DNA of 64,000 bases from Chitinophagaceae bacterium (GTDB lineage Bacteria; Bacteroidota; Bacteroidia; Chitinophagales; Chitinophagaceae), in contig JAIXOJ010000191.1 in assembly GCA_027486835.1 (NCBI GenBank), forward strand, positions 1 to 64,000, read 5' to 3'. A program made the position numbers and the translations under genes. Within the stretch, counting starts at the first letter, position 1; every line of letters starts with the position of its first letter. Below are positions 5,201 through 49,343 of this stretch, piece by piece. The notes under the pieces were generated by a model that saw only the letters and a list, made by a program, of their open reading frames with translations, had not been told where the DNA came from and did no database searches.

Positions 5201-8200
5201 ATTCATTAGATGTTACCTCTGGTGCCACCATTACCTTAAATTCTGGTGTTGTATTCCGAGTAAAAGGAGCGTTGAATAACAACGGAACAATCACTGGTGC
5301 AGGTAAAGTGTATTTGAAAGATGTTGGTTTTCAACCAATAGTTGGTACTACTTCTACAATCAGTAATGTTGACTTGGATAATACAGAAGGTGCTACTACC
5401 TTAAATACCGTTTCAACACACACAACTACTGGTACTTTAACACTTACGAGTGGTACATTAGCAGTCAATAACTCTACCCTAGCTTTCCATACAGGAAATA
5501 CACCCATTGCAGTAACAGCTGGTAAATTAGCGTTAACTACCACAAGTAACTTGGAATTTGGTACCGCTGGAAACTTAGGCGGTTCAGCATTTACAATACC
5601 TAATGATGTATTTAGTGGTACAGCACCTGCTGGACCTTCTTTCAATAACCTTACAGTTAACAGAGCAAACAGTATAACCCTTGGTAACCAAGATATCACT
5701 GTAAACGGAACGGCTGCACTAACTAGTGGTGTATTAGATGCTAGCGGAAGAACCCTAACTTTCCAAAACGGAAACACTCCGCTAAGCACTGCAACGGGTA
5801 CCCTTACCTTGAGCAGTACGAGCAACTTAATTTTTGGTACAACTGGTAATTTAGGCGGCAATGCAGTTACCATCCCTAATGGCGTATTTACTTCGGATCC
5901 ATCTATTACTAACCTGACAGTAAACAGAACAAATGCGTTAACCCTAGGTAACCAAGACCTGACCATTAGTGGAGCTTTGACATTAACCAATGGTGTTTTA
6001 AACGCAAGTGGCAGAACACTTACTTTCCATACAGGTGCAACACCAATTGTAAGAAATGGTACTACTTCAGTAGGTACGTTAACGCTTAGTAATACTTCTA
6101 ACCTAATTTTTGGAACTTCAGGAAATATAGGTGGTGCTGCGTTTACGCTCCCTAATAGCATGTTTACTTCAGCACCTACTATTAATAACTTCACCCTTAA
6201 CCGTACTAATAACTTAACGTTAGGTAACCAAGATCTTACGGTCAATGGTTCATTAACGCTTACTGCAGGAGTGTTAGTAGCAAGTGGTAAGAATCTGATC
6301 TTCCAAAACGGAGATGTACCTATCGTAAGAGATGGTACTACTTCAACGGGTACAATTACAGTTAGTAGTACTTCTAACTTAACCTTTGGTACTGCGGGTA
6401 ATGTTGGTGGTGCAGCTTTTACCTTACCGAGTGGTACATTTACTGGAACTACCACTTCGGTTAATAGCCTTAACATTAACCGTACAAATAGCTTGACATT
6501 AGGCCAAGATTTAATTGTAAACGCTGGAGGTCTTGCCCTAACAAGTGGCGTTTTCAATATTAATTCAAGAGTACTTACATTACAAACTGCTAATGTTCCA
6601 ATTACTAGAACTTCGGGTACATTAACTGTTAATACAAGTACAGCTATAAGCTTTGGAGCAACAGGTAATACTGGTGGCAATGCTTTCACTTTGCCAGACA
6701 ATGTGTTTACGGCAGCAACTCCAGCCTTCTTTAATTTATCGATTAACAGGGCAAACGATTTAATACTTGGCAACCAAAATATAACCTTAACAAGGGTTAC
6801 GTTAACTGCTGGTGTGTTAGATGCCAGCAACCGTACAATTACTTTTGGAAATACGAGTACTCCTTTGGTTACTACTGGAGGTACTTTAAAAGTAAATAGT
6901 GGTACAAGTTTGTCTTTTGGTGGAGGAAGTGGTGATAATAACGCACAAATTAACATTCCTAATAACTTTTTCACATCCACTCCTAGCCTTAACAACTTCA
7001 CCGTAAACAGGGTAAACCCAATTGCCTTGGGTAATCAGGATATGATTATCAATGGCTCATTGATATTAACCCGTGGCGCTTTTGATGTAAATGGTAGAAC
7101 CCTTACTTTCCAAAATGGCAACACGCCTATTACAAGGAATGGGACAACATCAATTGGTACTTTAACGGTGGGTAGTACCTCAAATCTAGCCTTCGGTAGC
7201 GTAGGAAATGTTGATGGAGATGCCTTTACTTTACCTAATAGCGTATTTACAGCAACCCCTTCTATCAACGATTTAACAATTAATCGTACTAATCCAATAA
7301 CTATAGGCAACCAAGCCTTCACTGTAAACGGTACGCTTACCTTAACATCAGGGGTTATAGCTTTAGGAAGTAATAACTTAACCTTGCCTAATACAGCTAC
7401 CGTTTCTGGTGCAAATACTGCTGGATATGTAGACGCTAGCGGTACAGGCAGACTTATTCGTAATTCAGTTGGCAATACTGCAACGCTATTTCCTGTGGGA
7501 ACGGCAGCTTCTTATGCACCTTTAACAATCACCAATACAACAGGTACTTCTAACTTAAGTGTGGGTGTTCAACCAACCATTACCAATGCAATTGGTGACC
7601 CAACACAGCAAGTAAATTTAGAATGGTCTGTTTTAGGTAGTTCACAAACAACTGCAACCATTCAATACCAGTTTAATGGTAGCGATGCAGCATCTGGATT
7701 CTTAACGAATACCAAATGCGAAATTGGTAATTTCAAATCAAATTATGGTGTTACACAATGTAGCAACAACGGTACTGGTATCCCTGCTGGGTCTGATCCA
7801 TACACCATATCTGCAATTGGTTTTGTTATCCCTAACTCAGGCACGAATTATTATGTTGTAGCCAATACAGGTAATGTTGTAATAACTTCTACCACTTGGA
7901 CTGGTACAGTAAGTTCAGCGTGGGGTACTAGTGCAAACTGGTCTGATGGAGTTCCTTCAGCAACTATTAGTGCAATTGTTGGCACAGCACTAAGGCAGCC
8001 AATAAATACCACTGCTCAAACGGTAAAAAGCTTGACGGTAAATAGTGGCATAACAATTACCAACAATAGTACAATTGATGTAAAATCAACCTTAACAAAT
8101 AATGGTACCATATCAGGAACTGGAACCACCATCCTAAGTGGTAGTGCCAACCAAGCCATCAGCGGTGTTGGAACAGTTAGCAACTTTACGGTTAACAATA

Positions 8201-25459: not shown

Positions 25460-27409
25460 ATGAATTTGAAAAAAAAGAATTTCCGCTTAATGGGTAGTAG
25501 TTATCTACTTGCCTTTATTTGGTTGGTAAGTATACCTATTGCAAATGCCCAGGTTAATACCAAAAAGGCATTTCAATTTGGCGAAGCCGCATTCCAATCG
25601 AAGACCTTGCCTGCTCACCCCAGACTTTTTGCCAATAGCCAAAGAATAGCAACTATCGGTTTGCAAAAAGATGCGGTAACCAAGCAATTGCTAGCATTTA
25701 TAAAAGCAGATGCCGAGAAGAAATGTGCCTTAAAAAAGATGGAGTATCCGCAAAATGTGATTACTAACCTGTTTATTTCAAGAGAGGCGGAAGACAGGAT
25801 AATATCCCTTGCCTTTGCGTATCGGCTGTTTAAAGAACCCCGCTATTTAGAAAAAGCGAAAACAGAAATCTTATCCTTGGCGGCATTAACCAATTGGGGT
25901 ACGGGTCATTTTTTAGATGTGGGTGAAGCATCGATGGCAGTAGGTATTGGGTATGATTGGTTGTACAATGAATTAAGTACTAAAGAAAGAGCCACCATTG
26001 TGGCAGCTATAAAAAACAACGCATTACTTCCTTCATTATTAGAAAAAGAAGCCGCTAACGATAAAAGTTGGGTAAATGGCAATTTCAATTGGAATCCTGT
26101 ATGCCATGGTGGATTGATGGTAGGTGCATTGGCAATAGCCGAACAAGAACCTGCATTGGCGAAGCAAATTGTAAATCGTGCAGTGAAAAATATTCCCATA
26201 GCGGGCGAAGCGTATGGCCCAGACGGTGTTTTTGCAGAAGGCACTAGTTATTGGTCTTATGGTACCATCTTTTATGTAATGGGCTTAGAGGCATTAAAAT
26301 CTGTATTGGGAAATACTACAGGACTAGAAAAAATTCCAGGGTTCATGAAATCGGCGGATTACTATATCCAAATGTCGGGGCCAACGGGCAATAAGTTTAA
26401 TTATTCAGATGCCCACCATGAGCAATTGAATGAACCCGTATTGTTCTGGTTTGCCAACCAATTGTCAAGAAAAGACTTGGTGGAAGAAGAGTTGACCAAA
26501 TTGCAAGAATCAGTTACGCCAAATTTGGGCAAACTCAAATACGATACGGCAGGATTAAAGTATAGCCGATTCAGTCCCTTTGAATTGCTTTGGTGGAAAC
26601 CCAATTTGCTCCAACAAAAAGAGCGTTTACCACGGAGTCGGCACTACACGGGTGCGGGTTTGCTTTCAATGGGTGTGGCAAGAAGTGCTTGGAATGAGGA
26701 GAATGCAACCTTTTACGCCATCAAAGGCGGCACGCCCAATAATTCGCACGGACACATGGATGCAGGAAGTTTCATTGTAGAAGCAGAAGGAGTTCGTTGG
26801 GCATTGGATTTAGGTAGTGAAAGCTATGATTTAATGCGGGCAGCCAAAATAGACCTATGGAACTATGCTCAAAACAGTACCCGTTGGTCAACGTTTAGGC
26901 CAGGGCCAGAAGCACACAATATTTTGCGGTTTGATGGAGAAAGACAGTTAATCACAGGCAATGGCGAGGTGAAAGCTTACAACCAAGGAGGAGTAATGGG
27001 CAATCGTGCCAACCTCACGTCCCTTTATTCCAATAAAGCCAGTAAAGTGGAAAGAACCTTGCAATTGCTTCCAGATAATTCCATCAAGATTTTGGATGAA
27101 TGGACTACAAAAGACAATGAGGTGGAAGTAACATTTCAATGGATTACAGGGGCAGCCGTAACAAAAACCAAAAATGGGCTGCTATTAACCCAAGATGGAA
27201 AAACACTACAATTAGTGATAACCACAAAAGTGGATTCTATCCTAATTGAGGATATTTCCAAACCAGTGAATAAGCAAGATTCGCCCAACCCAGGGAAAAG
27301 CAGGATCTTGATAAAGTTAAAAACACCGGCAAACAGCAATGGACAATTGAACATTCGAGCCATTCCTGGAAAGGCATTGAAAAAATTTAAACATCCTATA
27401 GCCCACTAA
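25460..27409 (+). CDS. Heparinase II/III-like polysaccharide lyase
   Basis: 649 residues with a signal peptide (MNLKKKNFRLMGSSYLLAFIWLVSIPIANAQ). The N-terminal alpha/alpha toroid includes HPRLFANSQR, GYDWLYNELSTKERATIVAAI and NWNPVCHGGLMVGALAIAE. The heparinase II/III beta-sheet domain has the hallmark NSHGHMDAGSFIVEAEGVRW followed by ALDLGSESYD. Enzymes with this architecture (PL12, PL15, PL17, PL21 and relatives) cleave uronate-containing glycans by beta-elimination and release 4,5-unsaturated uronates. The exact PL family and substrate cannot be settled from sequence reading alone. The product type fits the KdgF-like cupin and uronate pathway downstream. It is 91 bp ahead of a GH3 gene, probably in the same transcription unit. 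Confidence 0.88.
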   Translation: MNLKKKNFRLMGSSYLLAFIWLVSIPIANAQVNTKKAFQFGEAAFQSKTLPAHPRLFANSQRIATIGLQKDAVTKQLLAFIKADAEKKCALKKMEYPQNVITNLFISREAEDRIISLAFAYRLFKEPRYLEKAKTEILSLAALTNWGTGHFLDVGEASMAVGIGYDWLYNELSTKERATIVAAIKNNALLPSLLEKEAANDKSWVNGNFNWNPVCHGGLMVGALAIAEQEPALAKQIVNRAVKNIPIAGEAYGPDGVFAEGTSYWSYGTIFYVMGLEALKSVLGNTTGLEKIPGFMKSADYYIQMSGPTGNKFNYSDAHHEQLNEPVLFWFANQLSRKDLVEEELTKLQESVTPNLGKLKYDTAGLKYSRFSPFELLWWKPNLLQQKERLPRSRHYTGAGLLSMGVARSAWNEENATFYAIKGGTPNNSHGHMDAGSFIVEAEGVRWALDLGSESYDLMRAAKIDLWNYAQNSTRWSTFRPGPEAHNILRFDGERQLITGNGEVKAYNQGGVMGNRANLTSLYSNKASKVERTLQLLPDNSIKILDEWTTKDNEVEVTFQWITGAAVTKTKNGLLLTQDGKTLQLVITTKVDSILIEDISKPVNKQDSPNPGKSRILIKLKTPANSNGQLNIRAIPGKALKKFKHPIAH

Positions 27410-29883: not shown

Positions 29884-31692
29884 ATGAAAATTATCGGTTT
29901 AGCTTGTTTGGCACTGTTGGCGGTTCAGTTACGTATAAACGCACAGCAGTTGGTGCCTTTAGACAAATCGCTTGAAAAATTAAATCCAGTGAATGTTTTT
30001 CCATTGAACCCTGAAAAAACGTACAACTTCAATGATAGAAATAAAAAAGATCGACCATCCGAGTTTACGGTTAAGATGTTGGCCGACTCGGTACGTTTGT
30101 TTACAGCAGAAGTAACAGTTGCGGGTAAGGGCTATAATGATGTTCAGGTTGAGTGGAGAAGCCAATTGAAAATAAAAAAGGGCGATATTTTGTTGGCAAG
30201 AATGGCCATGAGAGGTGTCTATGCCAAGCAAGAATCTGGTGAAGCCATGCTCAATTTTGCGGTAACAGATGCAAGACCCAATGGAGAAAGAAGCGTGATT
30301 GTAGATTTAAGCATCGGCCCCGATTGGAAAACTATCGATATTCCGTTTATTGCCGCATCAGATATTTTGCCCAACAATGGTAAGATAACTATTGGCTTGG
30401 GGGCATTGGCGCAAAAAGTGGAAATTGCTGGGATAGCCGTATTAAATTTTGGAAACAAAGCAAGCCTTGCGCAACTACCGGCTACCAGATTTACGTATGA
30501 AGGCAGGGAAAAAGACGCCAAATGGCGCAAGGATGCATTAAAACGAATAGAAAAAATACGAACAGCACCATTGCAAATCAAAGTGGTGGATGCTGCTGGA
30601 AATGCAGTAGAAGGCGTGAACGTAAAAGCTCGGATGATTCAATCTTCCTTTATATGGGGCACGGCTGTTAATGAAGCAGAACTAGCAGATAACTTGCCTA
30701 CCTCTGAACAATACAAGACCTTGCTCAAGGAATTGTTCAATACCGTAGTGATAGAAAATGGGTTTAAATGGGAACGGTGGGCTGGTATTCCTGCTAGAAA
30801 AGTGCAAACACTTAAAGCTTTTGAATGGTTAGATCAACAAGGATTTAGGCAAAGGGGGCACAATCTGGTTTGGCCCGGATGGAAGTTTGCTCCAAAATTT
30901 GCCAAAGGCATGGCCGAAAAAGACAGTGCCGCTTTCCGCAAGTTGATTGAGGATGACATTCGAGAAAGGATGGCAATAACCAAAGGAAAAGTGATTGCTT
31001 GGGATGTGATTAATGAGCTAATGCACGAGCATGATTTTTTCCCCTACTTACCCAAAGATGTGGTGGGGCAGTGGTATAAGCTGGCAAGAAGTCTAGACCC
31101 AAAAGCACAGCTTTTTATCAATGAATATGCAATGCTCAATGGAAAATACAGTCCAAAGAATATAGAAAAATATATTGAGTTAGTGGATAATTATAGAAAA
31201 GAGGGCGTACCTATTGATGCCATGGGCGTTCAAGGCCATGTGGGCAGGCAGCCCCGCAATCCAGTAGATGTTATTTCAGATTTGGATTTGTTTACTCCAA
31301 TCGGTGTACCCATCCAGATTACAGAATTTGACGTAAACACCACCGACGAGGAATTGCAAGCCGATTATACCCGCGATTTTTTGATTGCTTGTTATAGCCA
31401 TCCTGCCATTACTGGTTTTATCATGTGGGGCTTTTGGCAAGGAAAGCATTGGAAGCCCGATGCCGCTATGTTTAGAACTGATTTTACGCCCAAACCCAAT
31501 GCCGCTGTTTGGCGCGATTTGGTGAATAAGCAATGGAAAACAAGCTTTGAAGCTAGTACAAATGCAAAAGGTAAAGTTGCCTCAAGAGGTCATTTTGGAA
31601 CGTATGATGTGGAGCTGAGTAAAGATGGAAAAGTGGTCAAACAGCAATACCAACTTACCAAAAATGCACCTGCTTTGGAAATAAAATGGTAA
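29884..31692 (+). CDS. GH10 endo-1,4-beta-xylanase with N-terminal beta-sandwich
   Basis: 602 residues with a signal peptide ending near RINAQQ. Residues about 40-195 form a beta-rich domain that may bind carbohydrate (a CBM-like module, family not assigned). The GH10 barrel follows: VIENGFKWERW, the GHNLVWPGW motif, acid/base E378 in WDVINEL and nucleophile E481 in IQITEFDVN. The spacing of 103 residues is normal for GH10. Its end contains GFIMWGFWQGKHWKP. It is predicted to cut the xylan backbone internally, with the two GH3 enzymes finishing the products. This is the clearest clue that the cluster acts on xylan or glucuronoxylan. There is no T9SS domain, so it probably acts in the periplasm on imported oligosaccharides. 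Confidence 0.94.
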   Translation: MKIIGLACLALLAVQLRINAQQLVPLDKSLEKLNPVNVFPLNPEKTYNFNDRNKKDRPSEFTVKMLADSVRLFTAEVTVAGKGYNDVQVEWRSQLKIKKGDILLARMAMRGVYAKQESGEAMLNFAVTDARPNGERSVIVDLSIGPDWKTIDIPFIAASDILPNNGKITIGLGALAQKVEIAGIAVLNFGNKASLAQLPATRFTYEGREKDAKWRKDALKRIEKIRTAPLQIKVVDAAGNAVEGVNVKARMIQSSFIWGTAVNEAELADNLPTSEQYKTLLKELFNTVVIENGFKWERWAGIPARKVQTLKAFEWLDQQGFRQRGHNLVWPGWKFAPKFAKGMAEKDSAAFRKLIEDDIRERMAITKGKVIAWDVINELMHEHDFFPYLPKDVVGQWYKLARSLDPKAQLFINEYAMLNGKYSPKNIEKYIELVDNYRKEGVPIDAMGVQGHVGRQPRNPVDVISDLDLFTPIGVPIQITEFDVNTTDEELQADYTRDFLIACYSHPAITGFIMWGFWQGKHWKPDAAMFRTDFTPKPNAAVWRDLVNKQWKTSFEASTNAKGKVASRGHFGTYDVELSKDGKVVKQQYQLTKNAPALEIKW

Positions 31693-35914: not shown

Positions 35915-36772
35915 TCAAAGTTTTTCAATTTCATCCTGCGTAAGTCCAGTAGACTCTATAATGGTATCTATTGCGATTCCGTTTTGTTTTAAGGATGCAG
36001 CTACTTTTTTTACGCCTTTTAATTCTGCTTCTATTTCTGTTTTTTGCACAGCTTTTTGTACAGCTTTCCTTATGGCTAAATTCATTCTTCCCCTGTAATC
36101 TTGTTCCCGCATCAGTACATAATCGTAGGCCTCTAATTCTGCTTGAGTCCAATTGTGCTTATAGGCGTCCTGATAGGCCATTTGTAATCCCCCGTCTTGT
36201 ATATTTTCAGGAATTACTTCCAATTCCTTAGCATTCTTAATGAAATAGACCCATTGTTCAACAATGGTTTCAAGTTCGTTGGCTTGCTTGATAAATTTGG
36301 GTAGTTCGATAAAATTGAATTCTATATCCTTTATACAATGCTCACCAGTGGCTACATCAGTTATTTTATGTCGGTTCAAAAAGCTAGGATTGTTTGTAGC
36401 AACAAAGTCTAAAATGCCAATGAAATAAATTGGGTTTAGTTTTTCATAATCATCACCGCTATGTATTTGAGCAGTATAGCTTTTAGATGCATAATAAAGC
36501 ACCCGTTTATCGAAATCATCCACTTCTGCTACCTGCATTTCTACAATATAGTTTTTGTTGTTCTGGTCTTTTGCCCTTACATCTACAATCGTAACCTTGC
36601 CTCCCCTTATATCAGGCAATTGGTAGGGAGTTAAAATTTCAACGTCAATTATTTTATACTGATTTGTCAATAATAAAACGGCATTTAGGAAAGAAATTAG
36701 TACTTCTTTCCTGTTTTCGTTTCCAAATATTTTTCGAAACGCTACATCATTTTTTACGTCTACAAATTTCAT
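35915..36772 (-). CDS. Rpn-family PD-(D/E)XK nuclease (transposase-like)
   Basis: 285 residues from MKFVDVKNDVAFRKIFGNENR, the standard start of the family (the frame is open 20 codons further). The nuclease core shows TIVDVRAKDQNNKNYIVEMQVAEV, the D...ExQ form of the PD-(D/E)XK active site, followed by KRVLYYASKSYTAQIHSG. The C-terminal part is charged and ends in a small helical LTQDEIEKL domain. Rpn proteins promote recA-independent recombination in E. coli. Many Bacteroidota carry dozens of copies. Two Cas9/IS-like features are absent: there are no terminal repeats. The gene lies opposite to, and splits, the glycan cluster, with its own promoter upstream and a shared terminator downstream, as expected for a late insertion. 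Confidence 0.88.
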   Translation of the reverse strand: MKFVDVKNDVAFRKIFGNENRKEVLISFLNAVLLLTNQYKIIDVEILTPYQLPDIRGGKVTIVDVRAKDQNNKNYIVEMQVAEVDDFDKRVLYYASKSYTAQIHSGDDYEKLNPIYFIGILDFVATNNPSFLNRHKITDVATGEHCIKDIEFNFIELPKFIKQANELETIVEQWVYFIKNAKELEVIPENIQDGGLQMAYQDAYKHNWTQAELEAYDYVLMREQDYRGRMNLAIRKAVQKAVQKTEIEAELKGVKKVAASLKQNGIAIDTIIESTGLTQDEIEKL

Positions 36773-36802
36773 TTTGTAATTTTTATATAGAAAAGGAGGT
36801 TT

Positions 36803-36832
36803 CAAAAATAAATAGTAACACTTAAAAAACAA
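36803..36832 (-). promoter_or_regulatory. Bacteroidota promoter of the Rpn-family gene
   Basis: On the minus strand TTG (36832-36830) and TATTTTTG (36810-36803) are 19 bp apart, an exact match to the consensus. Transcription would begin near 36797, about 25 nt before the chosen start codon. Confidence 0.7.
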
Positions 36833-37056
36833 TTCTAGAAAGGTTAAGTTGACTAGCGTCTATCTATGCATGTAGAGAACCATACAAGGAAATACCCATT
36901 ATATGGAATGTCAGGATATTTTTTATACTATTTTTTTTGGGCTAAAGCAAAAAAAAAATTAGGTGGGGAACAAAAAGAGAATATTTTCGCGTCATTAATA
37001 ATGAATAGTCCGTAATTAATATTGAATAGATCCCGACTTAAATGCTTTCAGCACAA

Positions 37057-38439
37057 ATGAATCAAACAAAGGTTTTTCTTTATTTCAGTTTTACAATTCT
37101 GCTTTTTTTATCGCAGGTAACGATAGGTTTTAGTCAAAACAATTGGTACACGCAAGGAAATTTTTCACCTGCTAAAAGAATTGCCTTAACGCTTACCAAT
37201 ACATTGGATTTTGAACGAAAGGATGTGCCAGTAGCTATAAAGAGAAATGAATTTGCTTTTTCCGATTACCAAGATTTTGAAATTACCATTGTGGATCCTA
37301 TGCTTGAGCCCAGACCAGATCCAGGCATCAAACAGCAAGGCAATTTTGGGGTGCATGAAATAAGAGGGGAACATTATGGACGAATGATTTTTCACCAGTT
37401 GGATGATTTAGACAAGGATGGAATTTGGGATGAATTGTTTTTTATCACCAACATGAAACCAAAAGAAACCAAAACAATTTATATCTACATTGGATACAAT
37501 AATCGAGGTTGGAATCCCTATACTACTGCTGCTACAATAGGTAGTTACGTACGCCACCTAGTACCTTTTTGGGAAAACGAATACGTGGGGTGGAAGCTTT
37601 GGTATCCTGCCGATTGTGATGTTTATGGCAAAAGAAAACCACAGTTAATTACATCAAAACTTAGTTTGGATAATTTAGATGGTTACGGTGTGCCGCACGA
37701 TATGGGTAGCGACATTATGGGTGTGGGCGTTTCCTTGGGTGGTGGCGGTGTTGTTATGTTTGACGATACCAACAAGCCTGATACGGTTTCAAGACCCAGA
37801 TTTACCCCTGCTAGAAAAAAGGCAGGTGTTAAAACCCCTTTCAACGTAGGACAATTGAGCGATACAAGGTATTCGTTTGATGTGGTTGTAAACGGGCCGA
37901 TTAGAAGCATTGTTAAAGTAAGAACCTTCAATTGGAATTCAGGTAATGGTTTTTATGAGTTAGAGCAAACTTATACCGCATATACAAGGCAAAACTATTC
38001 CACTTGCCAGGTGAAGTTTACCACATTTCAGCCCAAAAATAAAAACGTGTTTTTTGGTTGCGGCATCAAAAAGCACCCAGGCATAGAAGCAACATTGTAT
38101 AAAAAAGACAACATAGTACTGAGTGGCGGACCAGAAGAAATAGTAAACCCCGATGATCCTACTAATAAAAATCAAATTGTAGATTATATATCCACCGCTT
38201 TAGTCGTTAAAAAACAATACCAACCACAACTACAAGTTGTACGATCCGATACAACTAATAATTATGCTTTTAAAATAAAACCGACAAAAGACTTGAAATT
38301 TGAGTACCTCATAGGTGCTGCTTGGAGCGAAGGCCCACCTTTTAAAACCAATGCAGATTTTAAGGATTATATGGTGAAAACGGAAGAGGAATATGAAAAC
38401 CCACTTCAAGTTAAAGTAGGGGAAATAGAAAAAAAATAA
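37057..38439 (+). CDS. Secreted DUF4861-like protein
   Basis: About 460 residues with the signal peptide MNQTKVFLYFSFTILLFLSQ (an ATG at 37042 would add five residues). The mature part looks like an all-beta protein: RIALTLTNTLDFERKDVPVAI, GMxxGxx-type turns (PHDMGSDIMGVGVSLGGGG), FDVVVNGPIRSIVKVRTFNW and FEYLIGAAWSEGPPF. This matches what I recall of DUF4861, a family found in Bacteroidota glycan-degradation loci with polysaccharide lyases and unsaturated-uronyl hydrolases. Its function is not settled. It starts the second run of the cluster and lies 27 bp before the GH39-cupin fusion gene, so the two proteins likely act on the same product in the periplasm. Confidence 0.65.
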   Translation: MNQTKVFLYFSFTILLFLSQVTIGFSQNNWYTQGNFSPAKRIALTLTNTLDFERKDVPVAIKRNEFAFSDYQDFEITIVDPMLEPRPDPGIKQQGNFGVHEIRGEHYGRMIFHQLDDLDKDGIWDELFFITNMKPKETKTIYIYIGYNNRGWNPYTTAATIGSYVRHLVPFWENEYVGWKLWYPADCDVYGKRKPQLITSKLSLDNLDGYGVPHDMGSDIMGVGVSLGGGGVVMFDDTNKPDTVSRPRFTPARKKAGVKTPFNVGQLSDTRYSFDVVVNGPIRSIVKVRTFNWNSGNGFYELEQTYTAYTRQNYSTCQVKFTTFQPKNKNVFFGCGIKKHPGIEATLYKKDNIVLSGGPEEIVNPDDPTNKNQIVDYISTALVVKKQYQPQLQVVRSDTTNNYAFKIKPTKDLKFEYLIGAAWSEGPPFKTNADFKDYMVKTEEEYENPLQVKVGEIEKK

Positions 38440-38466: not shown

Positions 38467-40350
38467 ATGGATAGAGAAGAATTTTGGTTATTGAGGAATA
38501 AAAAGTGGGTGTTCAACGCCTTACTTACGCCCATTTTATTGTGCTTGAGTATAAATGCCATTGATGCGCAGAAAATTGACACCAGTTCTAAAAGGGTAAT
38601 AACAGACGTCAACATATCACTGCCTAGTATTGGCAAACTGAAACAAAGAAGTACCAATGAAATTGCCTCTTCCAATTGGATTATCGGTTGCGAAACACTT
38701 GACAGGGACTTTACAGATTATGACCAATACAAAGAATACATAGTACCCTTAGGCATCAAGTTGTTGCGAATGCAGGCAGGTTGGACAAAAACAGAGAAGG
38801 TAAAAGGGCGGTACGACTGGGCATGGTTAGATCATATTATTGATGATGCAACAAGCAGGGGTTTTAAACCTTGGCTACAAACCTCTTATGGCAACAAGTT
38901 ATATCCTGGCGGTGGCGGGGATAACCTAGGTGCAGGTATGCCAACCTCTAAAGAGGCTTTGGAGGGCTACAACAAATGGGTAGCTGCCATGGTAACAAGG
39001 TATAAGGACAAAGTAAAAGATTGGGAAATTTGGAATGAACCCAATTTTGGGGACAATACAGTCAATACACCCGAAATAACCGCCGATTTTAATATCAGAA
39101 CAGCAGAAATTATTAAACGCATCCAACCAGAAGCGCGTATTTCTGGTTTGGCTTTAGGGCATTTTAACTATGAATTTGTGGACGGGTTTTTAAAATACAT
39201 AGCCAAAAAAGGAAGGGCCAAATTGTTTGACAACTTCACTTACCATGACTATGTGTATAACCCTGACGCCAACTACTACCAAGTGTATCTATTGCAAACT
39301 TTATTGGAAAAATACACCCCCGGTGTGCAACTAAGGCAGGGAGAGAATGGGGCACCCTCGGGGAGTGGGTCAGGTAGAGGTGCTTTGTGGGATTATGAAT
39401 GGTCTGAGTTGACCCAAGCAAAATGGGATATCCGCCGAATGCTGGGAAATTTAGGACATGGTATAGAGTGCAGCATTTTTGGACTAATAGAAATGGCGTA
39501 CACCAATGGCCCAATCAATAAATTGAACTATAAGGGAATCATTAAATCAGATTCTACCAAAAAAGTGATTCGCCCAAAAATGGCTTATTACGCCATCCAA
39601 AACGTAACCTCCATTTTCGATGATCAATTAGAAAGAATTAAAGGCTTGGAATTCACACATAATATCAACGGCGTAAATCCTGAGGATAATAAATACACTA
39701 CCAATACTGACAGAAGCATCTCTGTGTATGGTTTTCGCAACAAGCAAACGCAAAAACAATTGTACACTATTTGGATGGATGACCATATTCCTGCCGAATC
39801 CAATAAAACAAATTCGATGGAATTTATCTTTTCCAATGCAAACTTCTCTGATCCAGTTTTGGTGGATATGATTACAGGTACAGTCTATGAAATACCCGAA
39901 AACAAATGGAGCAAAAAAGGCAATGTTTATACTTTTAAGGACATCCCAATCTATGATGCCCCAATTGTAATTGCAGATAAATCAACGATTCATTTTAAGC
40001 AAATTAAATCAAACAGTAACAGCTTTTTGTATGATAAAGAACTTCCTTGGGACGATTTAGGCGGCGGTGTTCAAAGGCAGGTGGTTGGCTATAATAAAGA
40101 TTTGATGATTGTAAAATTCAAGTTTCAAAAAGGAGGATTAGGTGCGCCTCACCACCATGTTCATTCTCAAAGTGCGGTGGTACTAAGTGGTGTGTTTGAG
40201 TTAACCATCGATGGAAAAAAGAAAATACTCAAAGCGGGTGATGGCTATATGGTAGAACCCAATGTTGTACACAGTGCTTTATGTTTAGAGGATGGGATAT
40301 TGGTAGATGCTTTTAATCCTACTAGGGACGAATTTTTATTGTCACATTAG
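38467..40350 (+). CDS. GH39-like glycosidase fused to a KdgF-like cupin
   Basis: 627 residues with a long signal-like N-terminus (NALLTPILLCLSINAIDAQ). Residues about 65-500 form a clan-A glycosidase barrel: WEIWNEPNF carries the likely acid/base (E191) and LRQGENGAPS the likely nucleophile (E293), with 102 residues between, as in GH39 and related families. Residues about 523-627 form a cupin that closely follows KdgF: the metal site H562-x-H564, Q568 and H602, and D614 in LVDAFNP corresponds to the catalytic Asp of KdgF. KdgF turns 4,5-unsaturated uronates into linear ketones. The fusion would couple release of a terminal uronate to its linearisation outside the cytoplasm. It lies between the DUF4861-like gene and the SSS symporter (54 bp). 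Fusion is certain from the frame. The coupled function is inference. Confidence 0.82.
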   Translation: MDREEFWLLRNKKWVFNALLTPILLCLSINAIDAQKIDTSSKRVITDVNISLPSIGKLKQRSTNEIASSNWIIGCETLDRDFTDYDQYKEYIVPLGIKLLRMQAGWTKTEKVKGRYDWAWLDHIIDDATSRGFKPWLQTSYGNKLYPGGGGDNLGAGMPTSKEALEGYNKWVAAMVTRYKDKVKDWEIWNEPNFGDNTVNTPEITADFNIRTAEIIKRIQPEARISGLALGHFNYEFVDGFLKYIAKKGRAKLFDNFTYHDYVYNPDANYYQVYLLQTLLEKYTPGVQLRQGENGAPSGSGSGRGALWDYEWSELTQAKWDIRRMLGNLGHGIECSIFGLIEMAYTNGPINKLNYKGIIKSDSTKKVIRPKMAYYAIQNVTSIFDDQLERIKGLEFTHNINGVNPEDNKYTTNTDRSISVYGFRNKQTQKQLYTIWMDDHIPAESNKTNSMEFIFSNANFSDPVLVDMITGTVYEIPENKWSKKGNVYTFKDIPIYDAPIVIADKSTIHFKQIKSNSNSFLYDKELPWDDLGGGVQRQVVGYNKDLMIVKFKFQKGGLGAPHHHVHSQSAVVLSGVFELTIDGKKKILKAGDGYMVEPNVVHSALCLEDGILVDAFNPTRDEFLLSH

Positions 40351-40404: not shown

Positions 40405-42057
40405 ATGAATAAGCTTCAATTATTAGATTATATAACCATCATTATTTACATGGCATTGATGTGCGGTATCGGCCTTTTCTTAGGCAAATACATTAAAAAC
40501 ATTGGTGATTATTTTAAGGGGGGAAGTGCGGTTTCATGGGTGGCTGGTGGCATCAGTAATTTCATGACCAAGTTTAGCACATTCGTATTTGTGGCTTATG
40601 CGGGCATTGCCTATTCTGACGGTTTGGTAGCTATTACGTTGATGTGGTCCACGATATTTCCTTCATTAATTGCGGTGTTTGTCTATGCAAAAATTTGGAA
40701 AAGAGCGGGCATCATCAGTCCAGTGGAGTTTTTAGAAACGAGGTATAATGCCCCAATCAGGCAGTTATTTTCTTGGAGTGGTGTATTGCTCAAGTTGTTG
40801 GATGACATGATTAAGCTCTATTCTATTGGCATATTTGTAACTGCTGCCTCTGGAATCCCCTTCCAAACAGCCGTTGTTTTTTGCGGATTAGTGGTAGCAG
40901 TATATACGGTTGTGGGAGGATTTCTAGCAGTAATCGTAACAGATGTTTTACAATTTGTCATTCTTTTCCTATCCACTTTCATTTTGGTTCCATTGGCTTA
41001 CAACGCCGCAGGTGGAATAAGCCACATGAAAGAAGTGATTCCCGCCAACATGAGTTTTTTTAATGGCCACAAGGGTGTCCCTTTTTTTATAGCTGTTTAT
41101 TACCTCACCATTATAATTAAATACTTAGGCAACTGGACCTTCATTCAACGCTTTTACAGTGCCAAATCAGAATCCGACGGAAGAAAAATTGGGTGGCTTA
41201 CCGCTGCTTTGTTCCTAGTATTTCCAGTAGTGTTTCTTTTCCCTTCAGTAGCTGCAAGGGTAATTATTCCCGACTTGAAAAACCCCGAAATGGCGTATGT
41301 GTCTTTATGCCTTAAACTATTGCCATCCGGTATTATGGGTTTAATGATTGCAGCCATGTTTGCCTCCACCATGTCTGTATTGAGTGCAGAATTTAATGTT
41401 ACTGCAAGTGTATTAACCAGAGATATCTATCAACGATTATTTAGAAAGAATGCCTTGCCAACGGAAACTTTATGGGTGGCGAGGGTGATGACATTATGTG
41501 TTGGGTTGATTGTTTCTTTTGGGGCTTTGTATGTAGATAAACTGGGAGGTGCATTTCAAGTGAACCAATACATTTCTGGTATATTCTCCATTCCGATGAT
41601 TATTCCAGTAATCATGGGGGTCATTTTCTGGAAACCCCAACCATGGGGTGCTATTGCCTCCATGTTCGTGGGTATTGGTGTGGGGATTTTCCTCAATTCT
41701 CACAAACAATTTAGTTGGGAAGTTGCTACCCTTATAGAAGTATTGGCTTGTATCGCTGTATTTCTCTCCTCTGGCTTTTTCCTTTCTTCTGATGAAGCAT
41801 ACAACACTCGGGTGAAAGCTTTCTTTAAAAAGTTAGCTACTCCCGTGGTAAACCTTGCGGAATCGCAGACTGGTGTAACGGGTGCTATCATGTTATTATA
41901 CGCTATTGCTTTTTTCATTACAGGTGCATTGTTTGTCATGATGAGCATCCCTTCCATCGGAAATTCAAGTGGTAAGTTGGCGATGGGTTCTGGTGCAGCA
42001 TGTATTATAGCGGCATTTATTTTTTATACAAAGCGGACAAAAGAAACGAGTGCATAA
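40405..42057 (+). CDS. Sodium:solute symporter (SSS family)
   Basis: 550 residues with about 13-14 predicted membrane segments, starting LLDYITIIIYMALMCGIGLFLGKYIKNIGDYFKGG. The typical SSS features are the GxxxxFxxxxG region around SWVAGGISNFMTKFSTFVF, SPVEFLETRYNAPIRQLFSW and the central GLMIAAMFASTMSVLSAEFN with the Na+-site Ser/Thr residues. SSS members carry sugars, sugar acids, proline or sialic acid with sodium. Its place between the uronyl-active fusion enzyme and glucuronate isomerase makes a uronate, or the linearised product, the best guess for its cargo. It is 54 bp after the fusion gene and 68 bp before uxaC, and so is part of one operon-like block. Confidence 0.9.
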   Translation: MNKLQLLDYITIIIYMALMCGIGLFLGKYIKNIGDYFKGGSAVSWVAGGISNFMTKFSTFVFVAYAGIAYSDGLVAITLMWSTIFPSLIAVFVYAKIWKRAGIISPVEFLETRYNAPIRQLFSWSGVLLKLLDDMIKLYSIGIFVTAASGIPFQTAVVFCGLVVAVYTVVGGFLAVIVTDVLQFVILFLSTFILVPLAYNAAGGISHMKEVIPANMSFFNGHKGVPFFIAVYYLTIIIKYLGNWTFIQRFYSAKSESDGRKIGWLTAALFLVFPVVFLFPSVAARVIIPDLKNPEMAYVSLCLKLLPSGIMGLMIAAMFASTMSVLSAEFNVTASVLTRDIYQRLFRKNALPTETLWVARVMTLCVGLIVSFGALYVDKLGGAFQVNQYISGIFSIPMIIPVIMGVIFWKPQPWGAIASMFVGIGVGIFLNSHKQFSWEVATLIEVLACIAVFLSSGFFLSSDEAYNTRVKAFFKKLATPVVNLAESQTGVTGAIMLLYAIAFFITGALFVMMSIPSIGNSSGKLAMGSGAACIIAAFIFYTKRTKETSA

Positions 42058-42125: not shown

Positions 42126-43526
42126 ATGAAAGGGTTTAACGATAAAGATTTTCTACTAAAAAGCGATTATGGTAAAAGATTGTACCATGAAGTGGCTGCT
42201 GCTTTGCCTATTATCGATCCACACAACCATATTGACACGGCTTCATTGGCTGTCAACAAACAATTTGAAAACATCTACCAATTATGGGTGCAAAACGATC
42301 CTTACAAGCATCGCGCTATGCGCATTTATGGCATAAGCGAAGCCCTAATAACTGGTAACGAGCCTGATTATGAAAAATTTCGAGCTTGGGCAGAATGTTT
42401 TCCAAGTACTGCTGGCAATCCGTTGTTTCATTGGAGTTGCATGGAACTGAAACAATTGTTTGGTATTGATTGGATATTAAACACCAACAACGCAAAACAA
42501 GTATGGGATATTGCCAATGAGAAACTATCGAAAGGCAATTTTGGCGCTTTGGATATCGTGAAAAGTTTTGGAGTAGAATTGCTGAGTACTTCTGATGACT
42601 TAACGGATACTTTGGAACACCATATTGTATTTGCCAAGCAGCAAAATGGAATTACTTGTTTGCCTTCTTTAAGGGCGGATAGCATCATCAATTTTAATGC
42701 GGCTAACTTTTTTGCATGGCTCAACCAATTGCAATCGCAAACAGGCGTTTCGGTTACAGATATTGATACTTACCAACTCGCAATTATCAATCGCCTAGAT
42801 TTTTTTGACCAAGCTGGCTGTTTGTTAAGTGACCATTCTTTAGACGGAGGCTTTACTTTTTCAGCAGTGACTAAGCTTGATGCTACCGAATTGTTTGCTA
42901 ATCTATTAATTAGTAAGAAATTAGCTGATAATGAACTAGTACAGCTTCAATCTTATTTTTTAGATTTTCTAGGTAAGGAATATGCCAAGCGCAACTGGGT
43001 CATGCAATTGCACATTGGCGCACATCGCTTCACTAGCACGGTATTGCGAAACAAAGTGGGGCCGGCTGGCGGATATGCTTGTATTGGCAATACAGCCCAC
43101 ATTCCTTCTTTATGTCTTTTCCTTGATGGACTAGACATTGAAGGATTATTGCCCAAAACCATTCTCTATACATTAAACCCTGCCGACAATGCCGCTTTTG
43201 CCAGCCTCACAGGTTCTTACGCTGAGGATGGAGTGAAAGCCAAAGTGCAATACGGCCCGGCTTGGTGGTACAATGATCATTATGAAGGCATTCTTCAACA
43301 ATTAAAGGCACTCAGCAGCTATGGTTTGTTAAGCACTTCCATCGGCATGACTACTGATTCAAGAAGCATCGTTTCTTTCATTAGGCACAATTACTACCGC
43401 AGGATTCTCTGCAATCTTTTAGGCGAATGGGTGGAAAATGGATGGTTACCCAATGATTGGGATTTTGTATCGGAACTGGTGAAAAATATATCGTATCACA
43501 ATATTAAAAATTGGCTAACAAAATGA
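42126..43526 (+). CDS. uxaC: Glucuronate isomerase UxaC
   Basis: 466 residues, the usual length for UxaC. It shows the amidohydrolase-type metal motif PIIDPHNHIDTASL near residue 30, the LHIGAHR segment (VMQLHIGAHRFTS) and the C-terminal GMTTDSRSIVSFIRHNYYRRILCNLLG typical of uronate isomerases. It converts D-glucuronate to D-fructuronate (and galacturonate to tagaturonate) in the cytoplasm, the first step of the isomerase route. Its stop codon overlaps the next start (ATGA at 43523-43526), so translation of the SDR gene is coupled. Together with the SDR and UxuA genes it gives the route from glucuronate to KDG. Confidence 0.95.
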   Translation: MKGFNDKDFLLKSDYGKRLYHEVAAALPIIDPHNHIDTASLAVNKQFENIYQLWVQNDPYKHRAMRIYGISEALITGNEPDYEKFRAWAECFPSTAGNPLFHWSCMELKQLFGIDWILNTNNAKQVWDIANEKLSKGNFGALDIVKSFGVELLSTSDDLTDTLEHHIVFAKQQNGITCLPSLRADSIINFNAANFFAWLNQLQSQTGVSVTDIDTYQLAIINRLDFFDQAGCLLSDHSLDGGFTFSAVTKLDATELFANLLISKKLADNELVQLQSYFLDFLGKEYAKRNWVMQLHIGAHRFTSTVLRNKVGPAGGYACIGNTAHIPSLCLFLDGLDIEGLLPKTILYTLNPADNAAFASLTGSYAEDGVKAKVQYGPAWWYNDHYEGILQQLKALSSYGLLSTSIGMTTDSRSIVSFIRHNYYRRILCNLLGEWVENGWLPNDWDFVSELVKNISYHNIKNWLTK

Positions 43527-44365
43527 GTGAAGTAGGAAACGGAAAGATTGCAGTGGTTACTGGGGCAGGCGGCACATTATGCTCTGCAATGGCTATCAAC
43601 TTGGCAAGTCAGGGTTACAAGGTTGCCCTGTTGGGAAGAAGCTTAGATAAGTTGAAAAAAGTGGAAGAAATCATTCTTGCAGAAGGTGGCATTGCCATTT
43701 CGGTAGGTGTGGATGTGTCAGACGAAGCATCTGTTATCGCAGCAAAAGACACCGTTGAAAAAGAATTGGGCGTGTGTACCGTATTGATCAATGGTGCAGG
43801 TGGCAATCAAAACGATGCATTGACCAATATCACCGAATACGACGAACGGGAACTGCTAGATGATGGTTCTGTAAAAGGGTTTTTCAACCTCAAAATGGAC
43901 ATTTTCAATTCAGTCATCCAAATCAATACCATGGGTACAGTCATCCCTTGTTTTGTATTTGGACGCAGTATGGCAGCAAACAAACAAGGGAGTATCATCA
44001 ATATTGCCTCAATGAACAGCTATAGACCCCTATCCAAAGTGGGTGCTTATGGTATTGCAAAAGCAGGTATCGCCAATTTCACCCAATGGTTGGCCGCTTA
44101 TTTGGCTCCCGCGAATATTCGTGTAAATGCTATTGCACCTGGCTTTTTCTTGAATGACAGGAGTAGAAAAATCATGTTCGAAGCAGATGGTAGCCATTCA
44201 GCCCGTGCTAAAAATGTATTATCCCATACGCCTTTGAAAAGATTTGGCGAAGCACCCGAACTACTTGGGTGTATGAATTGGCTAATCAGCGAAGAAGCTG
44301 CTGGCTTTGTAACCGGAATAGTAGTACCTATTGATGGAGGCTTTCTGGCTACCTCTGGCATATAA
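43523..44365 (+). CDS. uxuB: SDR-type fructuronate reductase (mannonate oxidoreductase)
   Basis: 280 residues of the short-chain dehydrogenase fold: the cofactor glycine motif VVTGAGGTLCSAMA, the NGAGG strand (VLINGAGGNQNDA), the catalytic Ser-Tyr-Lys set with IINIASMNSYRPL and YGIAKAGI, and a C-terminal GIVVPIDGGFLA. E. coli UxuB is a polyol-type dehydrogenase, but many Bacteroidota use an SDR for fructuronate to mannonate, and the operon position between UxaC and UxuA supports that. The ATG at 43523 overlaps the uxaC stop. A TTG further up is in frame but unneeded. The long insertion near residues 95-125 (YDERELLDDGSVKGFFNL) is also seen in SDRs of this pathway. Confidence 0.85.
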   Translation: MSEVGNGKIAVVTGAGGTLCSAMAINLASQGYKVALLGRSLDKLKKVEEIILAEGGIAISVGVDVSDEASVIAAKDTVEKELGVCTVLINGAGGNQNDALTNITEYDERELLDDGSVKGFFNLKMDIFNSVIQINTMGTVIPCFVFGRSMAANKQGSIINIASMNSYRPLSKVGAYGIAKAGIANFTQWLAAYLAPANIRVNAIAPGFFLNDRSRKIMFEADGSHSARAKNVLSHTPLKRFGEAPELLGCMNWLISEEAAGFVTGIVVPIDGGFLATSGI

Positions 44366-44471: not shown

Positions 44472-45215
44472 ATGAGCGTAGATCAGTATAAAAAGGAAGT
44501 AGGGATGATGAACCTAGAAAAACTCATCGAAACAAGGGAAAGTATTTCAACTGCCACTTTTCCAATACCTGAAAAGGAATTGCTTTCTCGGTTTGAGCAG
44601 TTATATACTGGAGCGGTAAATGATGTGTTAAGGGAGTTTTGCCTATTAGATCAGGCATTGCCTAACCATATAATTCCTTTACGGGATTATAGAACGGTGG
44701 CTGGTTTTGCTTTTACGGTGAAAAGTGCACCTAACGTAAAAGTGAAAGGGGAAATGGAGTTTCGTACCCAAATGTTGGATGCAATGATTGAAGATTCATT
44801 TGTGGTTTGGGATACTAGCCGCGATCAAAAAGCTACCTTATGGGGTGGTGTAATGACGGCAACTGCGAAGGGGAAAAAACTAAAAGCAGCTTGTATTGAT
44901 GGTGGTATTAGGGATACGCACCAGATTTTAGAAGCAGATTTTCCAGTATTCTATGAGTACAGAACATCAAATGGAAGTTTGGGGAGATGTTTAATTACCC
45001 ATTACCAAATTCCTATTAAAATTGGCGATGTAACCATTAAACCAGGTGATGTGGTGGTAGGTGATATTGACGGGGTATTGATTGTACCAAGAGATATTGC
45101 TTATGATGTGCTAGTGAGAGCGGAGCAAATAAAAGAAAACGAGAAAACCATTTTTTGTTGGGTAGAAGCAGGTGACTCTGTACAATCTATCACTGAAAAA
45201 GGGGGTTACTTCTAA
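44472..45215 (+). CDS. RraA-family protein, probable class II pyruvate-type aldolase
   Basis: 247 residues. AAAGG lies 7 nt before the ATG. The core carries the RraA/HMG-aldolase marks: GGVMTATAKGKKLKAACIDGG, IRDTHQI with the conserved Arg-Asp pair used for substrate and metal binding, and GDVVVGDIDGVLIVP. True RraA regulates RNase E in E. coli, but most family members are divalent-metal aldolases that split 4-hydroxy-2-oxo acids to pyruvate and an aldehyde. Older databases call them methyltransferases, which is wrong. In this operon a fitting substrate would be KDG, or a related keto acid. No kdgK or kdgA is present in the window, so this gene may supply the missing cleavage. That role is inference. 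Confidence 0.8.
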   Translation: MSVDQYKKEVGMMNLEKLIETRESISTATFPIPEKELLSRFEQLYTGAVNDVLREFCLLDQALPNHIIPLRDYRTVAGFAFTVKSAPNVKVKGEMEFRTQMLDAMIEDSFVVWDTSRDQKATLWGGVMTATAKGKKLKAACIDGGIRDTHQILEADFPVFYEYRTSNGSLGRCLITHYQIPIKIGDVTIKPGDVVVGDIDGVLIVPRDIAYDVLVRAEQIKENEKTIFCWVEAGDSVQSITEKGGYF

Positions 45216-48371: not shown

Positions 48372-49343
48372 ATGAAATTATCTTTTTTATTTTTTGGCAA
48401 TACACCCGACGAAAAATGGCAACTCTGTAACCAGATGGGTATTCAATATGCCATTGGCAAACTAGCCCCAGAAATTACAGGCAAATTACCACCTTGGGAT
48501 TTAGAAGCACTTAAAGCGGCAAAAGCAATCTATCAAGCCAATGGCTTTCAGCTTATTGGTTTAGAAGGCGACCAGTTTGACATGAATCGCATCAAATTTG
48601 GATTGCCTGGCAGGGATGAAGACATTGATTTGTACAAAAAGATGTTGGTGAATATGGGTCAACTCGGCATCAACTTGCTTTGCTACAATTTTATGGCGGG
48701 CATTGGTTGGTACCGCACCGAAACCAATCTTTCCGAAAGGGGAGGAGCTTTCGTAAGCGGTTTTGACACAACCATTGCCAATCAGCAACCATTAACCGAA
48801 TATGGAATCGTGAGCGAGGAGACAATTTGGAACAACTACCAATATTTTATCCAGCAAGTAATACCCGTGGCAGAACAAGCAGGTGTGAAAATGGCATTGC
48901 ATCCCGACGATCCCCCTGTTTCGCCCTTGCGAGGAATTGGTAGAATATTTATCAATGCCGATGGAATAAGAAAAGCTTTGGCACTCACCAACAGCCCGTC
49001 CCACGGATTAACCTTTTGCCAAGGCACATACACCACCATGGGCGAGGATGTACCCGCATTAATTGAGGAGTTTAAAGACCGCATACATTTTGTACATATT
49101 CGTGATGTAGTAGGTACACCCAATCATTTTAGAGAAACCTTCCACGACAATGGCCCAACGGATATGGTCGCCCTATTCAAAGCCTATAAAGCCATTGGTT
49201 TCAAAGGCCCCATCCGCTCCGACCATGTACCCACCATGGCTGGCGAAAGCAACCAACAGCACGGCTATGCCATGAAAGGCAACCTGTTTGGCATTGGCTA
49301 TATGAAAGGAATTATGGAGGCATTGGAAATGGAAATAGAATAA
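48372..49343 (+). CDS. uxuA: Mannonate dehydratase UxuA
   Basis: 323 residues, a compact form of UxuA (the E. coli protein is about 394). Characteristic segments are KLPPWDLEAL, LCYNFMAGIGWYRT, the metal-site pieces MALHPDDPP, TFCQGTYTTMG and IHFVHIRDV, and the closing SDHVPTMAGE. It dehydrates D-mannonate to KDG in the cytoplasm with a divalent metal. It is the last gene of the second block, 40 bp after the dehydrogenase gene. A short hairpin (TGACTTT...AAAGTCA, 49360-49380) follows and may help end the transcript. UxaC, the SDR and UxuA form a complete glucuronate-to-KDG route, which confirms that the cluster's substrate contains glucuronate or a related uronate. Confidence 0.94.
   Translation: MKLSFLFFGNTPDEKWQLCNQMGIQYAIGKLAPEITGKLPPWDLEALKAAKAIYQANGFQLIGLEGDQFDMNRIKFGLPGRDEDIDLYKKMLVNMGQLGINLLCYNFMAGIGWYRTETNLSERGGAFVSGFDTTIANQQPLTEYGIVSEETIWNNYQYFIQQVIPVAEQAGVKMALHPDDPPVSPLRGIGRIFINADGIRKALALTNSPSHGLTFCQGTYTTMGEDVPALIEEFKDRIHFVHIRDVVGTPNHFRETFHDNGPTDMVALFKAYKAIGFKGPIRSDHVPTMAGESNQQHGYAMKGNLFGIGYMKGIMEALEMEIE

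Follow-up and report, generated by a model that had tools for sequence, protein, structure and literature searches.

The window analysed here is the whole stretch of 64,000 nucleotides at positions 1 to 64,000 of contig JAIXOJ010000191.1 in the assembly of a Chitinophagaceae bacterium (GCA_027486835.1); the genes described below lie on the forward (+) strand unless stated otherwise. At 38467..40350 it contains one uninterrupted frame encoding a protein of 627 aa, the GH39-KdgF fusion, in which a signal-like N-terminus, a GH39-like barrel with a C-terminal beta domain, and a KdgF-type cupin follow one another. The preliminary description of this DNA had joined a GH39-like barrel to a KdgF-type cupin in one protein, and the single frame and the Pfam, sequence and fold matches given below agree with it.

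Directly upstream of the fusion is the gene for a DUF4861 secreted-type protein (37042..38439), the sole copy in the genome, which has no relative in the PDB; the literature searched contained nothing on DUF4861. The dehydratase P29_PDnc was considered as a DUF4861 protein and rejected, because the ulvan paper links it to PL37-type predictions and does not name DUF4861. Downstream, the gene for an SSS sodium/solute symporter (40405..42057), already recognized in the preliminary description as the next gene, begins 54 bp after the fusion. It is followed by genes for the uronate isomerase UxaC (42126..43526), an SDR of the D-mannonate oxidoreductase subfamily (43511..44365), an RraA-like aldolase-type protein (44472..45215) and a UxuA-like mannonate dehydratase (48372..49343), and this downstream cluster also includes an FAD/Fe-S oxidase gene. 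UxaC, the D-mannonate oxidoreductase and UxuA constitute the route for saturated glucuronate.

Further upstream are genes for GH92, MFS, GH10, GH3, PL35-type lyase, GH31 and other proteins. The PL35-type heparinase II/III-like lyase (25460..27409), 11 kb upstream of the fusion, matches the structure 8khv at 1e-114; enzymes of this family cut at D-GlcA in glycosaminoglycans, and one of them also cuts alginate (PMC11262172). The GH10 family protein (29884..31692) has counterparts beside GH39 genes at two other loci (L026 and L034). A PD-(D/E)XK nuclease family transposase is encoded on the opposite strand (35915-36832, -), where it separates the GH92 gene from the cluster of DUF4861 and the fusion, and it may have played a part in putting the locus together.

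GH88/GH105-family (PF07470) matches number 11 in the whole genome and zero on the contig of the fusion (C32). The same genome carries a kduD-kduI-KDG kinase-KDPG aldolase operon on another contig (C196), so that the product of a KdgF would be usable, and a second KdgF gene (L080) beside an alginate-lyase-type gene on contig C191.

Domains of the fusion protein and their junction

The first 36 residues (38467..38574) resemble a signal peptide, with a hydrophobic core at residues 15-29 (mean hydropathy 2.18 over these 15 residues) that is followed by ..NAIDA/QK, which includes DAQ. A signal-type hydrophobic stretch is recognized in 17 of the 20 barrel sequences, fusion included, and in none of the free-standing cupins compared. 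The fusion protein is therefore likely to be exported, as judged from these sequence features, and the signal-like N-terminus of the preliminary description is retained.

The GH39-like region of clan GH-A occupies residues about 57-508 (38635..39990). Its Pfam GH39 match covers residues 106-265 only and, at 27.0 bits, barely exceeds the cut-off of 26, while a profile search matched the region to GH39 entries of the PDB at 5e-11. The acid/base candidate E191 (in WNEP) and the nucleophile candidate E293 (in GEN) are invariant in all 20 barrel sequences, that is, the fusion and 19 relatives, which bears out the earlier statement that both catalytic Glu residues are present. The predicted structure is a clan GH-A barrel plus a C-terminal beta domain, with the acid/base and nucleophile Glu placed after strands 4 and 7 as in GH39; PF07470, an (alpha/alpha)6 family, has no match in this clan GH-A protein. 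The nearest folds are PslG and a Bacteroides GH39, with GH39 beta-xylosidases lower down, at identities of only 12-16%. The activities described for GH39 include even an endo-rhamnosidase (PMC8360166). Alignment and model thus point to a GH39-like barrel with intact catalytic Glu residues, the specific activity of which is not readable from the sequence.

The KdgF-type cupin extends over residues 513-627 (40003..40347), and Pfam recognizes Cupin_2 at residues 551-606 (8e-12). Its closest sequence relatives in the PDB are BeKdgF (7zyb, E = 2e-37) and YeKdgF (5fpx, 3e-28), together with a Shewanella KdgF-like cupin and HaKdgF. The metal-ligand positions H562, H564, Q568 and H602 are invariant across 33 free-standing KdgF-like cupins, and so are D614, F616 and R620, which align with Asp102, Phe104 and Arg108 of BeKdgF (PMC11381880); the numbering of the four ligands and of D614 in the preliminary description proved correct. 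Eighteen of the 19 columns that are invariant among stand-alone cupins are kept in the fused one, the lost column being the start Met. Barrel and cupin were aligned and modelled as separate domains. The cupin model, built from 34 sequences, has a mean pLDDT of 88, and its top five Foldseek matches are all KdgF structures at 1.0-1.5 A (BeKdgF, YeKdgF, HaKdgF and the Shewanella cupin make up the top 11, at 1.0-1.7 A). The superposition proposed earlier therefore yielded a predicted KdgF fold rather than a cupin lacking the KdgF pocket. In the full-length model the cupin part is poorly predicted because its relatives are absent from that alignment, so that the relative placement of the two domains is not readable from that model. 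Sequence and fold together assign the cupin to the KdgF family, with catalysis predicted.

The fused cupin stands on a long branch (1.0) in the cupin tree. Three free-standing cupins group with it, and two of them are encoded at uronate-catabolic loci that also have KDG kinase and KDPG aldolase genes; an alginate lyase gene is directly upstream of the cupin gene at one locus, and KduD is present at the other. An origin from the second KdgF gene of the same genome was considered and rejected, as the tree places the two in different groups, with weak support.

At the junction (39991..40005), the barrel relatives end at around residue 508 and I513 (ATT) is the position that corresponds to the KdgF start Met, so that the domains are joined almost exactly end to start. 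An internal TTG (L521) is a possible separate start for the cupin, but we found no evidence supporting it. The distance from the GH39 stop to the SSS gene is 53-67 bp at three other loci (L029, L031 and L037), close to the 54 bp that follow the fusion; the cupin thus occupies the spot where its relatives run directly from the GH39 stop to the SSS gene, which counts against misassembly. Because the cupin matches KdgF so closely in sequence and is predicted to share its fold, the fusion is more than chance.

Such a fusion is rare. The cupin is absent from all 19 aligned barrel relatives, every one of which ends near residue 508, and among the GH39 genes of the relatives none has an adjoining cupin gene within up to 8 kb of flank, as would be expected of a pre-fusion state. 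The preliminary description had suggested a search for other GH-cupin fusions of this order, and we found no second one in 61 relatives, 398 genomes of the order, 395 of the class and 395 of the phylum (overlapping sets; three candidates scored per genome in the order, class and phylum scans), nor in an all-species scan for close relatives. In 345 Bacteroidota genomes, a KdgF profile found 67 strong matches (E below 1e-30); 66 of them are free-standing, with frames of 106-205 aa, and the fusion, in a 628-codon frame, is the sole exception. These numbers, and the signal-free N-termini of the free-standing cupins, are in line with the earlier remark that KdgF is normally a separate cytoplasmic protein. 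The literature searched described no KdgF fusion.

Relatives of the barrel and the proposed function

Much of the downstream gene set is shared with GH39 loci of Segetibacter, Pedobacter, Mariniphaga, Flavobacterium and others. Orthologues without the fused cupin occur at twelve other loci, next to SSS, RraA, UxaC or SDR genes: UxaC, SDR, RraA and UxuA-type genes accompany the cupin-less GH39 gene in five of the loci compared (L025, L026, L027, L034 and L039), and UxaC and SDR genes in another (L032). Few genes accompany the GH39 gene as constantly as the RraA-like one, which does so at 9 loci. Since these cupin-less orthologues are found in the same glucuronate clusters, the barrel evidently works without a fused KdgF elsewhere. 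Two loci contain paired GH39-like paralogues close to each other, at 6713-8161 and 8493-9911 in L031 and at 3287-4699 and 7941-9485 in L025.

At four other loci (L022, L024, L030 and L037) the GH39 gene is accompanied by heparinase-type lyase genes and/or KduD, not by UxaC. In Rhodocytophaga the KduD gene abuts the GH39 gene, and in Spirosoma (L022:1-9494 and L024:207-9518) a PL35 lyase gene is immediately upstream of the GH39-like gene. The same Spirosoma loci encode RraA, an SDR, a second heparinase-type protein, a glyoxalase-type protein and a zinc dehydrogenase; L022 additionally has an SSS gene, and its PL35 frame is split into three pieces.

We propose, with about even confidence, that the fusion combines two enzymes in one protein that is exported, most likely to the periplasm, and belongs to a uronate-glycan utilization locus. 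The N-terminal GH39-like domain, as a retaining glycosidase, would free a terminal uronic acid, saturated or 4,5-unsaturated, or a sugar beside one, from oligosaccharides, and the C-terminal KdgF would open the ring of the free 4,5-unsaturated monouronate to give a linear keto-uronate of the DKI/DEH type. A stand-alone gh39 gene may have been joined end to start with a kdgF-like gene in the lineage of the fusion, and this would have moved KdgF activity out of the cytoplasm. Export, the catalytic action of each part and a common pathway are our inferences, the weakest point being the supply of the cupin's substrate by the barrel itself. The genes conserved around the barrel speak more for saturated glucuronate, whereas unsaturated uronate is suggested by the lyase and the cupin; release of the saturated sugar by the barrel is about as probable as not, and release of the unsaturated one is rather doubtful. 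Both kinds of uronate may be made in one compartment; that the symporter imports the linear product is a guess. Several facts count against this two-enzyme proposal: the fusion is known from a single genome, its cupin has a long branch, the adjacent catabolic genes serve saturated glucuronate, the orthologues at twelve other loci do without a fused cupin, the unsaturated monouronate also opens spontaneously (PMC11381880), and the full-length model predicts the cupin poorly. Of the interpretation in the preliminary description, the fusion, the KdgF cupin, the probable export signal and the neighbouring symporter stand, whereas a barrel cutting 4,5-unsaturated uronate, action of the two activities in sequence on one substrate, and uptake of the linear product by the symporter remain conjecture; the adjacent catabolic genes are for saturated glucuronate, and KduD and KduI are encoded on another contig.

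Somewhat short of an even chance is an arrangement in which the barrel is beta-glucuronidase-like and frees saturated D-glucuronate for the symporter and for UxaC and UxuA, and the cupin is an independent passenger without sequential coupling, acting on unsaturated monomer made by lyases in the same compartment. This would suit a clan GH-A barrel with two Glu residues, the UxaC, SDR, RraA and UxuA genes that lie downstream here and beside cupin-less GH39 genes elsewhere, and the PL35-type lyase in the same window. However, it does not suit the four loci that combine GH39 with heparinase-type lyases and/or KduD in place of UxaC. Furthermore, the PL35 enzymes characterized so far are endo-acting (PMC12269599), so that a free unsaturated monomer would require another enzyme.

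Rather unlikely, in our estimation, is direct coupling as in the preliminary description, with the barrel as a new unsaturated uronyl hydrolase that passes its product to the fused KdgF and replaces GH88/GH105 in the locus. GH39 includes alpha-L-iduronidase, the substrate of which has the anomeric sense of an alpha-L-threo unsaturated uronide. The PL35-type lyase, the 11 GH88/GH105 matches in the genome and their absence from this contig, and the GH39 genes that abut PL35 (Spirosoma) or KduD (Rhodocytophaga) are likewise consistent with it. However, the pathway genes adjacent to the fusion are for saturated glucuronate, and the known GH88 and GH105 unsaturated uronyl hydrolases differ in fold and act by hydrating the double bond. 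GH88 yields 5-keto-4-deoxyuronate directly (PMC12269599), and thus a KdgF would be needed only with a retaining hydrolase. Quite unlikely is the specific form in which, in a periplasmic pair on one polypeptide, the GH-A domain hydrolyses terminal 4,5-unsaturated uronate through the classical retaining mechanism rather than by GH88/GH105 hydration and the fused KdgF linearizes the product at once; if true, a retaining GH-A enzyme and KdgF would add another way of removing the ends that lyases leave.

It is also unlikely that the cupin is catalytically idle, either as a binding or stabilizing domain or as a recent accidental fusion heading for decay. The singleton status of the fusion, the long branch in the cupin tree and the second intact KdgF of the genome would fit such a fate, but the cupin retains all its metal ligands and catalytic residues, and of the invariant columns it has lost the start Met alone. 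An assembly chimera of two unrelated genes is very improbable, for although the assembly is a draft of 219 contigs and the fusion was found in no second genome, the reading frame continues across the junction, the flanks on both sides fit the gene order of the relatives (GH39 then SSS), and the junction lies deep within a 104.6-kb contig.

If the two-enzyme protein is exported as proposed, the fusion would shift the KdgF step to the periplasm and tie it to polysaccharide trimming. It would also provide a natural handle on the family of GH39-like enzymes that occur alongside glucuronate catabolism genes in many Bacteroidota, a family for which we found no characterized member.

Comparison with known systems

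The fused cupin is 38-54% identical to the KdgF proteins of known structure (BeKdgF, 7zyb/7zyc; YeKdgF, 5fpx/5fpz; HaKdgF, 5fq0), with a predicted fold within 1.0-1.7 A, and has the metal ligands and the Asp/Phe/Arg catalytic set in common with them. However, known KdgF proteins are small and free-standing, whereas this one is the C-terminus of an exported-type glycosidase. The barrel shares with GH39 enzymes (PslG, 5jvk of B. cellulosilyticus and the beta-xylosidases) the clan GH-A fold, the acid/base in an NE motif, the nucleophile Glu and the C-terminal beta domain; it differs from these glycosidases in its low identity (12-16%), its place in a uronate cluster and a Pfam GH39 score only 1 bit over the cut-off. 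Much closer are the GH39-like proteins that stand alone in Spirosoma, Fibrisoma, Segetibacter, Pedobacter, Hymenobacter and others (L022-L037), those of the close group being 57-66% identical to the N-terminal part; they have a signal-like N-terminus and neighbours as in the fusion; unlike the fusion, they have no cupin and stop near residue 508.

The locus may also be likened to two Bacteroidota pairs, the glucuronate dehydratase BcGDH with GH88 (PMC12269599) and P29_PDnc with GH105 (ulvan), in which terminal glucuronate is converted to an unsaturated uronate for a dedicated enzyme. In contrast to these, the contig of the fusion has no GH88, GH105 or recognized dehydratase.

In other Bacteroidota, cupin-MRJP propeller proteins (L087:5128-6549 (+) and L088:4932-6344 (+)) are, like the fusion, of exported type and contain a KdgF-like cupin, which is 37% identical to the fused cupin over 101 aa and keeps HxH..Q..H and DxFxPxR. 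Their cupin, however, is N-terminal and is joined to a royal-jelly/SMP-30-type propeller, not to a glycosidase; by sequence, they represent a second kind of secreted KdgF-like fusion. Because this different fusion exists, an exported KdgF-like cupin is not new as an idea, and what is new to the genome searches and to the literature searched is the GH39-KdgF architecture.
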